A DNA stretch of 64,000 bases from Fibrobacter succinogenes. GTDB taxonomy: Bacteria; Fibrobacterota; Fibrobacteria; Fibrobacterales; Fibrobacteraceae. The stretch lies in the NCBI GenBank assembly GCA_902762795.1, contig CACWPM010000007.1, forward strand, positions 62,001 through 126,000, written 5' to 3'. The position numbers and the translations under genes are program-made. Under the pieces are notes generated by a model that worked only from the letters and a program-made list of their open reading frames with translations, did no database searches and was not told the origin of the DNA. Position 1 is the first letter of the stretch; every line of letters begins with the position of its first letter. This document shows positions 57,042 to 63,985 of the stretch, piece after piece.

Positions 57042-57357
57042 TTTACCCCTACCGGCTTTCGCCTTGGATTTTACCAAAACGGTTTTCCATTAACGCACTC
57101 TTTTGTTCACTTGCCTTTTTGTTCACTAAATATAGTACTAGCTGCTCAAAAAAGCAAGTCTTTTTTTGAGATTATTTTTTTACCGGCTTAGATAACGTAG
57201 ATACATTTTTTTGCATTTCTATATCATCATGATACAAATTTGTTTGTAAAAACTCAAAAAATGTAAAAAAATTTAATCTTTTATAATTAATGATTATAGT
57301 TTTTTGAACATAAAAATTTACCACCAGGAGTCGTACTTATCGGGAGGGGGAATCGGG
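57042..57357. other. AT-rich divergent promoter region
   Basis: This 316-base gap lies between the minus-strand radical SAM gene and the plus-strand VWA gene. It is strongly AT-rich (especially 57165-57300) and must hold both promoters. No small gene, strong hairpin or repeat was found. Confidence 0.45.
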
Positions 57358-60300
57358 GTGAGAACTTTCTTAAAAGCAATTCTATTTACTCTATTGTTTG
57401 TAACAAGTATTAGCGCAAACGTCGTTATAGAAGGAGATAGCACCACGTATACAGTCGCCATTGGCGATACGATTTCCATCACATCAAAAAAGAACATCGC
57501 CATCGGAGAAAACCTGGTTCGGTGGGAAATTGTTTCAGGAACGGGAACTTTCATAGATTCGACGGCGGACTCAACAGGATTTATTCCTTCGTCGGATTCT
57601 GTCACTCTAAGAAGGATAACACGAACACTCCCCATTTACGAATTGACCGACACTTTTAGCAAATTTTTTTATGACAAAAATAGCGTCGCAATCCCATCAG
57701 GATCGCACTACGGCATCAGAACTTTTTTCAATGCCAACGATTCCGGGCAATACGTGGCAATTCTTTCTTTTAAACAATCGACCGGTTTCCTGAATTATTC
57801 AACAGACAGTACGTTTTCAAAATCAACCTCAAGGACATGCATCGGGGCGCGTTGTTACGTCAATGCAAAAGCGAATACAAAACACCATCTGCTCCTCTAC
57901 TTGGCAAATACCTCCTCTGGCGACAGGAAGGATTCCATCAAAATCCGTGTCGAGCGTACCCACATTTTAAATATCGACACGACATCAACATTGGGTAAAG
58001 CCTACATCGATTCGTCAGGATCGAATGTTACCGCGTACACGAAAGCCATCAAAACTGACAGCATAAAGATTAAAGCCATCCCCGATACAAACAACGTTTT
58101 CGAACAATGGAAAGTCGTTTCCGGTCCCTGCCGCATTCGCGATACCAAACAGGAAAATACGACCGTTTTTGGTATTACAAGTAATTGTACAGTAAAGGCG
58201 TTTTTTCGGGAAGGAACAATCTACACCATCACGGATACTCCTGTCCAGTATAACTTTACGGACCATCTGTACTCCAAAAAGGTTTCTGCCGGAGCTGTCG
58301 GCGTCTGGTTTTCTTTTACGGCACCTACAAGCGGTGCCTATACATTCGTCGTATCCAACGAAATGACACAAGACAACCTCGTTTACCGCAGGTACGTATC
58401 ATCTAATTACAAAGTCGTATCTTTATCCCAAGTTTTTAAAGGAACATACAGCCAAACATTAAACCTGAACCAAGGTGAAACTGTAGCCATCATAGTTTCA
58501 AACACCACACAAAAGCCGAACAGTTTCTGGATCAATTATTCTAGGCAATCGTACCGGCTCACACTCAATACGGACGGTTTTGGTAAAGTCAAGCCCGATT
58601 CCGGATACAAAATGGCATTTGAAGGTTCCAAGTACACCATCTCGGCAGAAGGGAATGACGGTTATCGTTTTTCCGAGTGGAGGGCCACTTCCGGAATGCC
58701 GACAATTGATGACAAGTTCATTGCCAATACATTTGCCACAATCAACAACACATCCGAAATAATAGCTTTATTCAAGCCTAGCGAAATATATAACGTAACC
58801 AAGACCGAACAGACTTTCAATTTTCAAAAGAATTATTACACCGAAAAAAGCCGGTCAACTATCCGTTTTCGCTGGACTCCGCCGGACACGGGCACATACG
58901 TGATCCATTTTGACGCAATCGATTCGTTAAAAGGAATTTATGTCAATTACAGCGATGACAGTTCTTTTACAAGAAGCTCTACGAACAAGGGCGTAAAAGG
59001 AAAAACGGGTTTCTTCATAAAAGGAACTCCAGGAAAGCCCATTTACTGGTCGTTCAAGGACAGTTCGGAAACCATCCCGGACAAATCCTTCAAATGCTGG
59101 ATATCGGATCCTAGCATCCTTAATGTAAACACAACAAAAGGCGGGGCAGTCAATCCCCCGGGGCGTCAATATACACAGATTGGCGACAAGACCATTCTTA
59201 CCGCATGGCCATATGGCGGCTACACGTTCAAATCCTGGGTAGCTACCAAATGCAATCTTATCATCGATAATCCCAAAGATCCAAGAACAACTGTTATTCA
59301 AAAAGACATGGCCTGCGCCATAAAAGCGACGTACTCCATCGATACAACGGCAGAGCCTTCGTTAAAGATTTCGCAACTCGATCTAGGCAATTACCCCGAA
59401 ATATGCGCCTCGGTTTCAGTGACGGACAAGAACACCGCGCTTTCATTTTACGGACTCACCTCAAGCGACTTCAGGCTCTCCCAGGACGAAATATCGATCC
59501 GTCCACAAGTTACAAGCATCACAAGCGTTTCCGGCGTTTCAGTCGTTATCGTCATTGACGAAAGCGGATCGATGTCAAGCAATAACCGAATGGCCAAGAC
59601 AAAAGAAGCCATACGCGACTTTATCGGCAACATGGGCCCCTACGACAGGACTGCAATTGTAGGCTTCCGCGGAGGCGATTCTACTTATGTCCACCATACC
59701 ATGACTTCAGACAAAAATCTGCTCGTCAAATCATTGGATTCGGTCAGAGCTAGCGGTAACACAAATATTATCACAGGAGCGAATGTCGGATTGCAGCAAA
59801 TCGTCAACGAATCAAACCCGACCGCAGTTATCGTCTTTTCTGACGGCGAAAACAGTTCCGCCGATAGCAAAAAACTGGATGATTTTGTCAAAGCGGCAAA
59901 TGAGAAGAACACCGCTATTTACACCATCGGGCTTGAAACGACTTCTGAATTTCCGCTGAAGGACATGGCAAAAAGAACTGGAGGAACATTCACTTTCGCA
60001 AGCGACGCAAGCGAACTGGCCGGTATTTACGCCGCAATCCGCGACAACGTAAAATCCCAGTATGTAGTTTGTTTCCAATCACCGGATTCGGTCCAGAACT
60101 CAGGCGTTCATGACATCGTCATTCAAACGACCTTCAACAAGAAAAACGCAAGCGATACAGTGCAATGGACCGAAAAGTCAATGCCACCGACAATCACGCT
60201 TACGCAAGACACTCGGGACTTGATCAACAATGAGCAAATGGCAAATAGGTCCATCACAATTAGCGCGTATATAACATCCGGCCAGAATATTCAAACGGCA

Positions 60301-62004
60301 AATCTGTACATGCGGACATCAAGTCCAATCGAACGGACCTTCGAAAAATTTTCCATGCGGAATGTACGCGACAGCCTTTGGGAATTCGTCATCCCGGCAA
60401 ACGAAGTCATGGCACCGGGCATTGACTTTTACATGACGGCAGAAGACGATATCGGACAAATCGGCAAGTCCCCCAAAATCAAGACGCCATCCAAGGAACC
60501 CTACACCATATTCGTCAACAACGACATTCCCGAAACCAAGATTGTCTCTGTCGCTTGCGAAGATTCCACAAAGAATATCAAAACGTTCACCTTCAAAATT
60601 GACGATCGTGATGGAATTATGAACGCAACGCTGTACTATAGGGATTCCCGTGCTGTCATTTTCCAGGAAATTCCCCTCGCCTATTCAGCCCAGAACGGTA
60701 CCTGGTCCATAGAAATCCCTGCAGACACAAGCGAATACTCATCCATAAACTATTACATCCGCGCTACAGATGCCTTGGGTGCCACGGTTCGATACACAAG
60801 CAACGGATTTTTCAATACGGACGCATGCATCATCAAGACCGACACCATTCCCAAAGATTCGATCGACAAACCCATCCGTGACACCATCAATTATTCCCTC
60901 ATTGCCGATGTCGCCGAAATATACGATTTGGACTTGGACGGCATGGCCGATTTCGTACGAATACATTTCAATGACGAGCATGACAACAACATCTCAAATA
61001 TCGATTCCATTTTCTGGAATTCCAGCAGCGGCGAATGGCGATCCGTTCCGAAAGGGGCTATACAAATCAACAAAATCGATGGAAAATGGGCCGAAGCCCC
61101 TATCGAAAAACCTTTTAACTATGGCCTTACCAAAGCAGACTTGGTGAAAAAACCTTTCTTGAGTTTTTCGACGGACAAGTCGAACAAACTTGAAAACGTC
61201 CTGCTGATTGACAAGGTCGGAGCAGTTCCCGTGAAAGCGGTCTTGCATCCAGGAAAAACCGATCTCAAGGAATACATGGACCCTTATTCAGAAGATCCGC
61301 CCGACACGCTTGTCATCCATATGTCCGAACCAATAATGAATAACGGTGTCGAAGATGCTTGGAAAAAACTGTTCCGCTACTCAAATTCTTGCAAGGACAC
61401 GACTTCGTACGAATTAAACTCGAAAGAAGCGCCAATCATTCAGAGCGACGGTTTAAAGTGGTCTCTGCTTCTTGATAATTATACCATCAAGACAGGATTT
61501 TGCCTATTCACGGACCCGCAAGCATCGTATGTAGATTCTTGGGGAAACGGGCTTGGTCGCGGAGGCGTAGGAATTGAAGGCAATAACGGAATCAAATATC
61601 TCGATGAAGTCAAACCTTTACAAAGTGTCAGCGGGATTGGAGATTTGCCAGACTGGCTCCCCCCGGGTGGCTTTGCCTGGGAACGCATGGCAGATACTTT
61701 ATCGGCCATCCGTGTAAAAACGTTTTACCCTTATACGGCGGACGTGTACATATATGACGGTATATCAACTTTTGTAACGCACTTCCAGCAGAAATTCGGC
61801 TATGACGGCGAAATGGACCATCCGTTACGCATGGGTTCCGATAAACCGACCAGCCTCGGTTTCCTATATTGGAATCAAAGATCCGAAAAGGGGCGGAAAA
61901 TCGGTCCCGGCATTTACATTTGGAAAATACTATTCACTTTTGAGGACGGCCATAAGGAATTGAGGATTATCACAACCGGCATCGTTCGAAAAAAACGGAA
62001 ATAA
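57358..62004 (+). CDS. Giant secreted VWA protein with InlB-like repeats and C-terminal secretion-type domain
   Basis: GTG 57358 has GGGAGGGGG seven bases upstream and gives a clear signal peptide (RTFLKAILFTLLFVTSISA). The TTG 57304 alternative puts a charged extension before it. The protein has 1548 residues. Three divergent InlB/Bacterial-repeat domains (about 200-285, 395-480, 587-665) contain YRFSEWRATSG and YTFKSWVATKC type motifs. A VWA domain follows at about 730-900, with an intact MIDAS motif DESGSMSS (about 735) and later VFSDGENSS. Ig-like modules lead to a C-terminal domain (ADVYIYDG to GIYIWKILFTF) resembling type IX tails. A surface adhesin is likely. Confidence 0.86.
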   Translation: MRTFLKAILFTLLFVTSISANVVIEGDSTTYTVAIGDTISITSKKNIAIGENLVRWEIVSGTGTFIDSTADSTGFIPSSDSVTLRRITRTLPIYELTDTFSKFFYDKNSVAIPSGSHYGIRTFFNANDSGQYVAILSFKQSTGFLNYSTDSTFSKSTSRTCIGARCYVNAKANTKHHLLLYLANTSSGDRKDSIKIRVERTHILNIDTTSTLGKAYIDSSGSNVTAYTKAIKTDSIKIKAIPDTNNVFEQWKVVSGPCRIRDTKQENTTVFGITSNCTVKAFFREGTIYTITDTPVQYNFTDHLYSKKVSAGAVGVWFSFTAPTSGAYTFVVSNEMTQDNLVYRRYVSSNYKVVSLSQVFKGTYSQTLNLNQGETVAIIVSNTTQKPNSFWINYSRQSYRLTLNTDGFGKVKPDSGYKMAFEGSKYTISAEGNDGYRFSEWRATSGMPTIDDKFIANTFATINNTSEIIALFKPSEIYNVTKTEQTFNFQKNYYTEKSRSTIRFRWTPPDTGTYVIHFDAIDSLKGIYVNYSDDSSFTRSSTNKGVKGKTGFFIKGTPGKPIYWSFKDSSETIPDKSFKCWISDPSILNVNTTKGGAVNPPGRQYTQIGDKTILTAWPYGGYTFKSWVATKCNLIIDNPKDPRTTVIQKDMACAIKATYSIDTTAEPSLKISQLDLGNYPEICASVSVTDKNTALSFYGLTSSDFRLSQDEISIRPQVTSITSVSGVSVVIVIDESGSMSSNNRMAKTKEAIRDFIGNMGPYDRTAIVGFRGGDSTYVHHTMTSDKNLLVKSLDSVRASGNTNIITGANVGLQQIVNESNPTAVIVFSDGENSSADSKKLDDFVKAANEKNTAIYTIGLETTSEFPLKDMAKRTGGTFTFASDASELAGIYAAIRDNVKSQYVVCFQSPDSVQNSGVHDIVIQTTFNKKNASDTVQWTEKSMPPTITLTQDTRDLINNEQMANRSITISAYITSGQNIQTANLYMRTSSPIERTFEKFSMRNVRDSLWEFVIPANEVMAPGIDFYMTAEDDIGQIGKSPKIKTPSKEPYTIFVNNDIPETKIVSVACEDSTKNIKTFTFKIDDRDGIMNATLYYRDSRAVIFQEIPLAYSAQNGTWSIEIPADTSEYSSINYYIRATDALGATVRYTSNGFFNTDACIIKTDTIPKDSIDKPIRDTINYSLIADVAEIYDLDLDGMADFVRIHFNDEHDNNISNIDSIFWNSSSGEWRSVPKGAIQINKIDGKWAEAPIEKPFNYGLTKADLVKKPFLSFSTDKSNKLENVLLIDKVGAVPVKAVLHPGKTDLKEYMDPYSEDPPDTLVIHMSEPIMNNGVEDAWKKLFRYSNSCKDTTSYELNSKEAPIIQSDGLKWSLLLDNYTIKTGFCLFTDPQASYVDSWGNGLGRGGVGIEGNNGIKYLDEVKPLQSVSGIGDLPDWLPPGGFAWERMADTLSAIRVKTFYPYTADVYIYDGISTFVTHFQQKFGYDGEMDHPLRMGSDKPTSLGFLYWNQRSEKGRKIGPGIYIWKILFTFEDGHKELRIITTGIVRKKRK

Positions 62005-62175: not shown

Positions 62176-63426
62176 ATGAGCTGGTCATACTCAAGAGAAC
62201 ATCAGAAAAATATCCTTTGCATGATCATGGCTGGTGGACAAGGGAGCCGTCTACAGCCCCTCACCCGCGACCGTGCAAAACCTGCAGTACACTTTGGCGG
62301 AACCTACCGCATTATTGACTTCGTCCTCAACAATTTCATCAATTCTGGAATTTTTAAAATCAAGGTTTTGACGCAGTTCAAGAGCGACTCCCTAAACAAG
62401 CATATTTCCGCAGCATGGAATTTAAACGCAAGTCTCGATCAGTATGTAGACTTGGTGCCCGCCCAAATGCGTACCGGAGACGAGTGGTACCGCGGTACGG
62501 CCGATGCTATTTTCCAGAATATCAACCTGATTACAGACGAACGCCCGGACCTCGTGGCCATTTTCGGTGGCGACCACATTTACAAGATGGATATCAATCA
62601 GATGATTGATTTTCACTTGAGCCGAGCCGCCCTCCTCACGATTGCAGCAATCCCGGTGCCCGTTGAAGAAGCCCGTGAATTCGGCGTTATCGAAATTGAC
62701 GCCGACAACCGCATGGTCGGTTTTGAAGAAAAGCCAAAAGAACCGAAGCAGATGCCGAACCGTCCGGGGTGGTGCCTCGCCAGCATGGGCAACTACCTCT
62801 TCACGAGCAAGTTCCTCGTACGTGAACTTTTGAAGGGCGCTAACTCTGGCGCTACGGACTTCGGCAAACATATCATTCCGCGCTTGTACAAGGATTACCC
62901 GGTTTACGTTTACGATTTCAACACGAATATCGTGCGTGGTGAAAAGGCTTCTACGAAGGGCTATTGGCGCGATGTGGGTACGCTTGATGCCTTCTTCGAA
63001 GCAAACATGGACCTTTGCTCCGAAAATCCGCCGTTCGACCTGTACAACAACTACTGGCCAATCCGTACATACAACTGGAACCAACCGCCAGCACGTTTCT
63101 TTGCGGGCGACAACGAAAGCCATCAGGGCGCAGCCGTCGATTCCATTGTTTCTGCCGGTTGCATTATCGGTGGCGGAACGGTCGTGAAGAGCATTCTCTC
63201 GCCGGGCGTGACCATCCAGAAGGACGCTCTCGTTGAAGAATCTATCCTCTTCCCGAACGTGACGATTGGTCCGGGCGCCAAAGTTCGTCGAGCCATCATC
63301 GAGAAAGGCTTGCACATTCCGGCAGGTTTCCAGATCGGTTACGATTTGGAACGTGACAAGCAGCTTTTCCACGTGACAGAATCCGGCATCGTTGTCCTCG
63401 CCAAGGATACGATAATCAAAGCCTGA
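62176..63426 (+). CDS. glgC: Glucose-1-phosphate adenylyltransferase GlgC
   Basis: GlgC makes ADP-glucose for glycogen, which Fibrobacter stores in large amounts. The nucleotide site is MAGGQGSRLQPLT (about 18-30). KPAVHFGGTYRIIDF (about 35-49) follows, and the sugar-phosphate region has FEEKP and GDHIYKMD. The C-terminal half is a left-handed beta-helix (SIVSAGCIIGGGTVV). The 416 residues are normal. AGAGGA precedes ATG 62176; a second frame starting at 62136 is a shadow. The stop TGA is followed directly by an in-frame TAA that belongs to a 48-bp hairpin repeat. Confidence 0.95.
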   Translation: MSWSYSREHQKNILCMIMAGGQGSRLQPLTRDRAKPAVHFGGTYRIIDFVLNNFINSGIFKIKVLTQFKSDSLNKHISAAWNLNASLDQYVDLVPAQMRTGDEWYRGTADAIFQNINLITDERPDLVAIFGGDHIYKMDINQMIDFHLSRAALLTIAAIPVPVEEAREFGVIEIDADNRMVGFEEKPKEPKQMPNRPGWCLASMGNYLFTSKFLVRELLKGANSGATDFGKHIIPRLYKDYPVYVYDFNTNIVRGEKASTKGYWRDVGTLDAFFEANMDLCSENPPFDLYNNYWPIRTYNWNQPPARFFAGDNESHQGAAVDSIVSAGCIIGGGTVVKSILSPGVTIQKDALVEESILFPNVTIGPGAKVRRAIIEKGLHIPAGFQIGYDLERDKQLFHVTESGIVVLAKDTIIKA

Positions 63427-63670: not shown

Positions 63671-63985
63671 TTACGTACTTTTCTACTGTTTTTTTGCCTT
63701 CTAGTACGTAATGAAAAAACTCATTTTTATACGATTACGTACTTTTACACCATTTTTCAAGCATTTGGTACGTAATTTCGACTTTTAAGGCTTGGAAATT
63801 CTTCGGGATCACTCTTTTTTAAAGTTAAAAAAGTCAAATTTCATGGATTTCAGCTATTTTCAATCATTTTTTTTCACTTTTTTACGTACTTTCCTACTGA
63901 TTTTCTGTATTCCAGTACGTAACACACAAAGTAACTGAATAAAATTACGTACTTTCGAGCCATTTTTCGCACGTTTAGTACGTAA
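63671..63985. repeat. Array of four 41-bp units bounded by TTACGTAC / GTACGTAA
   Basis: Units at 63671-63711, 63735-63775, 63882-63922 and 63945-63985 are each exactly 41 bp. Each opens TTACGTACTTT and closes GTACGTAA, eight-base perfect inverted ends. The 25 inner bases are T-rich and only partly conserved: units 1 and 3 share CTACTG, and units 2 and 4 share CCATTTTTC. Units come in pairs 63-64 bases apart, and the pairs are separated by 106 bases. There is no coding frame here. The array may continue past the window. Confidence 0.9.

Follow-up and report, generated by a model that had tools for sequence, protein, structure and literature searches.

The BIMEs and REP arrays of enterobacteria are intergenic mosaic arrays of inverted units, for which protein binding has been proposed. 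Tn7-like transposons have the DDE transposase TnsB, together with TnsC, near their ends and produce a 5-bp target-site duplication. In REPIN-RAYT systems, a low-copy protein gene is flanked by repeats, and cognate gene-less repeats are dispersed through intergenic regions (PMC8049555, PMC3116915). The ends of these repeats are conserved while the interior varies, the repeats persist vertically over long periods, and the RAYT protein is a Y1 (HuH) tyrosine transposase that acts on hairpins (PMC8049555, PMC3116915).

We analysed a 64,000-nucleotide stretch of Fibrobacter succinogenes DNA (the window), in which the first-pass annotation had reported four 41-bp TTACGTAC-N25-GTACGTAA units. All four are exact and lie at the reported positions (Table 1), with start-to-start distances of 64, 147 and 63 bp. 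The 25-bp interiors had been described as alternating in type, and identities counted by hand agree: unit 1 matches unit 3 at 19/25 positions and unit 2 matches unit 4 at 16/25, against 14/25 for units 1 and 2. In shuffled windows, with three mismatches allowed, the pattern occurred on average 0.13 times and never four times, and the whole genome holds 47 exact units in about 14 clusters versus 0 for the reversed pattern, which rules out a chance motif. Nor does unit length vary freely, since the gap between arms is almost always 25 bp genome-wide, with a few of 24 or 26. A very large, secreted-looking ORF of 1566 aa (window 57304-62004) directly upstream of the glgC-like gene is unrelated to the array.

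Table 1. Features of the array and its upstream landmark, in window coordinates.
Feature	Position	Strand	Remarks
Complete array element, 315 bp	63671..63985	.	Ends are the outermost arms; apparent gene-less dispersed copy of the TTACGTAC class
Unit 1, TTACGTAC-N25-GTACGTAA	63671..63711	.	Exact pattern match
Linker between units 1 and 2, 23 bp	63712..63734	.	Window sequence
Unit 2, TTACGTAC-N25-GTACGTAA	63735..63775	.	Exact pattern match
Central spacer, 106 bp	63776..63881	.	A/T tracts with 10.5-bp phasing, as measured on 19 thinned class-1 spacers
Unit 3, TTACGTAC-N25-GTACGTAA	63882..63922	.	Exact pattern match
Linker between units 3 and 4, 22 bp	63923..63944	.	Contains second conserved motif, CACACAAAGTAAC
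Motif M, ACAAAGTAA	63926..63934	.	Common to arrays with quite different arms
Unit 4, TTACGTAC-N25-GTACGTAA	63945..63985	.	Exact pattern match
glgC-like upstream neighbour	62176..63426	+	Named from sequence; landmark outside the system

The TTACGTAC clusters that we examined are all intergenic, and the genes around them show all orientations, convergent pairs (L010, L017, L019) among them. The right-hand neighbours of two arrays (L008, L009) appear to resemble the TIGR02147 family of Fibrobacter. A typical element spans about 303-315 bp and consists of two units joined by a 22- or 23-bp linker, a spacer of about 95-106 bp, and a second pair of linked units; across the system, units are 39-41 bp long and have inverted arms. 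One linker carries the motif ACAAAnTAA/TTAnTTTGT, which occurs 2.58 times per kb inside arrays versus 0.10 times per kb in the flanks. Non-allelic elements are 73-77% identical to one another, and their alignments end at the outermost arms. The elements share with BIMEs and REP arrays the intergenic arrangement of inverted units, but their units are not fixed-sequence hairpins, their spacing is strictly quantised along the helix, and each arm class has its own nuclease-fold protein. A further dispersed array class with TTTTACGTAAaAA arms and a gap of about 24 bp was seen in genome G000 (L012 1482-1671, contig C7), and a gene in the same genome (L263, G000:C3:124183) has arms that match it.

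The unit spacings follow the turns of the double helix. Centre-to-centre distances fall at 63-64, 73.5, 84-85, 94-95, 106, 136, 147, 157, 168 and 200 bp, quantised with a period of about 10.4-10.5 bp (R=0.88, n=136; the Rayleigh p-values take no account of shared ancestry). The same 10.5-bp lock was found for spacings in 47 protein clusters (70% identity) plus eight non-Fibrobacter loci, which come from Lachnospiraceae, Treponema and related bacteria (R=0.887, n=130). A/T content has a 10.5-bp periodicity too and stays in register with the arms over the full length of the element, about 300 bp (amplitude 0.128 versus a shuffled maximum of 0.020), and in the 47 clusters and eight outside loci this phase persists to ±80 bp. 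Helical phasing of this kind fits curved or wrapped DNA and not RNA hairpins, and it suits the earlier suggestion of paired protein-binding half-sites held about four helical turns apart.

Conservation was measured on 11 orthologous element pairs between two species. The 8-bp arms are identical at 557/576 positions (96.7%), or at 492/496 (99.2%) when locus L018 is left out, compared with 72% identity for interiors, 74.5% for spacers and 70.5% for flanks. Gapped positions number 51 inside elements versus 865 in the flanks; 42 of the 51 come from a single incomplete unit where a contig ends, which leaves hardly any true indels within the elements. Sequence that drifts freely while length and helical phase stay fixed is characteristic of a nucleoprotein assembly rather than of an RNA or a coding region. 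Idle mobile elements would not be expected to keep their arms so well in gene-less copies passed on vertically, which suggests that the copies may serve the host, and the apparent purifying selection on them argues for a function that would be either host-relevant or self-protecting.

In at least three species (L016, L022, L089/L106), an ORF of 276-291 aa has an array on either side, and homologues of this ORF adjoin arrays of every arm class; the gene of the TTACGTAC class is at L016:8738-9613. Across the 80 genus genomes we count about 130 homologues, spread patchily over 50 of them; the genes are divergent, and any one genome has 0-8. In the window's genome about five more members of the family are present, probably with arrays of their own in each case. 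A de novo search that was not given the arm sequence found an adjacent array at 29 of the first 30 gene loci and, across the genus, at 81/98 (17 loci have no array by the criterion used, and a handful of the positives are doubtful), versus 2/79 control windows, both of which resemble genuine arrays of other classes (Fisher 2e-30). Most arrays are found upstream of their gene, at a distance of about 100-500 bp, and some genes have them on both sides. Dozens of arm sequences at these loci share one geometry. The four of 80 genomes with TTACGTAC arrays are the same four that hold the cognate gene (p=6e-7), and arm similarity follows protein similarity more closely for residues 1-60 (Mantel r=0.445) than for the C-terminus (0.284), with the Mantel p-values again uncorrected for shared ancestry. 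Some genomes have arrays but no detected cognate gene, such as G064 for TTACGGGA. Members of a nuclease-fold protein family are widely paired with inverted-repeat arrays that are phased along the helix and match them in specificity.

The protein matched no Pfam or NCBIfam family, whether of transposases or of any other kind. Its RSKSE, PDF and WEHxG motifs are essentially invariant among 68 homologues, with E170, P203-D204 and E219-H220 kept in 99-100%; these residues resemble a PD-(D/E)XK-type catalytic pattern in which the position of the lysine is ambiguous. An AF2 model (pLDDT 82.6) has a helical N-terminus with a β-hairpin and a C-terminal domain, which resembles the nuclease domain of the PADLOC candidate PDC-S68 (1e-22). 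Foldseek alone gave no significant fold match (best E 0.055). With VIA, the best nuclease neighbours of the C-terminal domain were I-Bth0305I (3r3p, Z 8.6), TnsA (1f1z, Z 8.0), Bax1 and Vsr, scores of 8.0-8.6 being borderline by VIA's own note, and we tentatively assign the modelled domain to a PD-(D/E)XK fold like that of TnsA, Vsr and homing endonucleases. Although the Vsr/EDxHD homing endonuclease I-Bth0305I is the best structural match, the gene here lies outside any intron or intein and is tied to multi-unit arrays; the N-terminal region of its product is distinct, and there is no sequence-family match. In one subfamily (L268, G088:C9, G006:C161, G045:C21), homologues match in two blocks (residues 23-206 and 211-289) about 126 bp apart in one open frame, an extra insertion before WEHFG.

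The glgC-like gene served as a landmark for locating the orthologous sites, whether filled or empty. At this position, downstream of the gene, other Fibrobacter species have the same geometry with different arms, TTACGGGA-N25-TCCCGTAA, and in still others the site is empty, with a short intergenic region. Units of the TTACGGGA class (class 2) occur in only 5/80 genus genomes, none of them rich in TTACGTAC, and form a symmetric inverted repeat with outer, terminal GGGGATAATTTT boxes. Arms of the sequence ATGCATATA define a third class, which G001 has alongside TTACGTAC, and a TTACATAC class is dispersed in 17/80 genomes. ATGCAT, at first taken as a control pattern, proved to mark yet another genuine arm class in G001 and G045; its matches elsewhere are mostly chance singles. 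Gene/array pairs extend from the genus Fibrobacter to two further bacterial phyla, with adjacent arrays at 8 of 15 gene loci from Lachnospiraceae, Eubacterium, Treponema and Crickella. Lachnospiraceae RGIG2901 (Bacillota) has a five-unit TTACGTACTAC array (L141 6292-6598) and four homologous genes on other contigs. Apart from L122, L125 and L141, single TTACGTAC matches in unrelated phyla can mostly be put down to chance, which predicts about 60 in 257 Gb. No full-length phage counterpart was found in IMG/VR, only domain-level relatives; an unverified 4.2-kb faecal 'Bacteriophage sp.' scaffold encodes a full-length homologue (31%). A plasmid search returned only the nuclease domains of AAA-ATPase or helicase proteins.

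Arrays at many orthologous loci are common to relatives, whereas others are filled in one genome and empty in the next. G000, for example, has the L013 array, which six relatives lack, among them the class carriers G001 and G045, and the L019 array is missing in G088. These contrasts favour a gain of arrays by dispersal and, together with paralogues bounded at the outermost arms, fit the mobile non-autonomous element envisaged in the first-pass annotation. Empty-site alignments revealed no target-site duplication or clean excision boundary, but the flanks there have diverged too far for a duplication to be legible. Separately, the G045 site orthologous to G001 (L310 versus L159) lacks both the ATGCATATA-class gene and the home array, and G045 retains only some partly degenerate arrays of this class; this may be a natural instance in which the gene was lost and its arrays then decayed.

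We give about an even chance to a two-part system of protein and cognate arrays with REPIN-RAYT-like population dynamics, in which the window array would be a gene-less dispersed copy. One part would be a protein of about 276 aa, with an N-terminal helix/β-hairpin region and a C-terminal PD-(D/E)XK domain, whose gene sits at another place in the genome, next to a home array that has these arms too; the other would be the arrays of about 300 bp, built of 39-41-bp inverted units. Protein dimers may grip the inverted arms through the N-terminal region, and with all units on one helical face and the A/T tracts in phase, the array could bend or wrap into a single nucleoprotein complex. The gene-linked array would then be the home locus and the dispersed arrays non-autonomous copies, which the protein would spread at a low rate and purifying selection would retain. 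As in REPIN-RAYT systems, cognate repeats flank the gene and disperse through the genome, and gene-less copies with conserved ends and variable interiors persist vertically. In contrast, the protein is PD-(D/E)XK-like rather than a Y1/HuH transposase, and its repeats come as 41-bp units, grouped into arrays of about 300 bp that are phased along the helix and show long-range A/T phasing. The population behaviour is REPIN-RAYT-like, but the system is not a REPIN-RAYT member because the defining transposase is missing.

It is rather unlikely, though worth weighing, that the protein is instead a domesticated DNA-binding protein that wraps the dispersed arrays and so organises the chromosome or controls nearby transcription, having kept its nuclease fold for contacting DNA or for some minor task, with the gene-side arrays acting as autoregulatory operators. 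The upstream position of most arrays, the strong purifying selection on arms at orthologous loci and the nucleosome-like A/T phasing are what such a protein would lead one to expect; several dispersed arrays, however, lie between convergent genes, neighbouring genes have no visible common function, close relatives differ in array presence, and the nuclease motifs hardly vary. The PDC-S68 likeness, the patchy distribution with its many private specificities, and arms that rarely tolerate mutation could also belong to a defence or toxin-antidote device, in which array assembly keeps the nuclease silent or sensing, and cleavage is set off when arrays are disturbed or lost or when foreign DNA invades. 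We consider this improbable: it leaves the dispersed arrays unexplained, no known defence partner was noticed, and IMG/VR holds no full-length phage counterpart.

Given the TnsA-like fold, the genes flanked by arrays on both sides and the inverted-repeat symmetry of class-2 elements, the arrays might be the ends of a transposon or MITE whose second, unseen transposase works with a TnsA-like nuclease, but we see only a slim chance of this. Binding-site-like arrays do recall Tn7, yet in the examined home loci a single gene and no TnsB or TnsC was seen, listings of the ORFs next to the G000, G001 and G024 arrays showed no common second gene, and gene-less arrays are dispersed and conserved with no target duplication found. 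The inverted arms could pair, as in the transcript with four stem-loops and 25-nt loops that had been proposed at first; this we find hardly credible. Arms are identical, not covarying, between loci of one genome, loops accept substitutions but hardly any indels, the 10.5-bp phasing of spacings and A/T content runs on through unpaired regions and spacers, and an Rfam model search gave no match to the array; on these grounds RNA hairpins were rejected. So was a CRISPR array, in keeping with the initial remark that CRISPR repeats do not match: CRISPR arrays have direct repeats, spacers of foreign origin and cas genes, whereas the arms here are inverted, the interiors drift by substitution in orthologues, and no cas gene was seen among the neighbouring ORFs. 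Evidence for the suggested partition-type or recombinase site array was not found.

In the limited literature accessible to us, we found no earlier description of the protein/array system. A little short of even is our confidence that all of the following hold jointly: that at least three phyla share a novel class of DNA-protein system, in which each nuclease-fold protein recognises a private inverted arm of 8-12 bp and assembles on helically phased, nucleosome-like arrays of about 300 bp; that its specificities, dozens of them, change together with the protein as they evolve; and that gene-less arrays populate the host chromosome and are kept there for genome organisation, defence or selfish persistence in a way undescribed in bacteria. 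Such a system would add a second type of intragenomic repeat population to REPIN-RAYT and may be expected to surprise specialists. It ties an undescribed, abundant nuclease-like family to its apparent DNA sites, and its dozens of natural protein/site pairings make DNA recognition and co-evolution directly testable. The arrays themselves are a rare case of bacterial DNA that is free in sequence but fixed in length and helical phase, as expected of a wrapped nucleoprotein.
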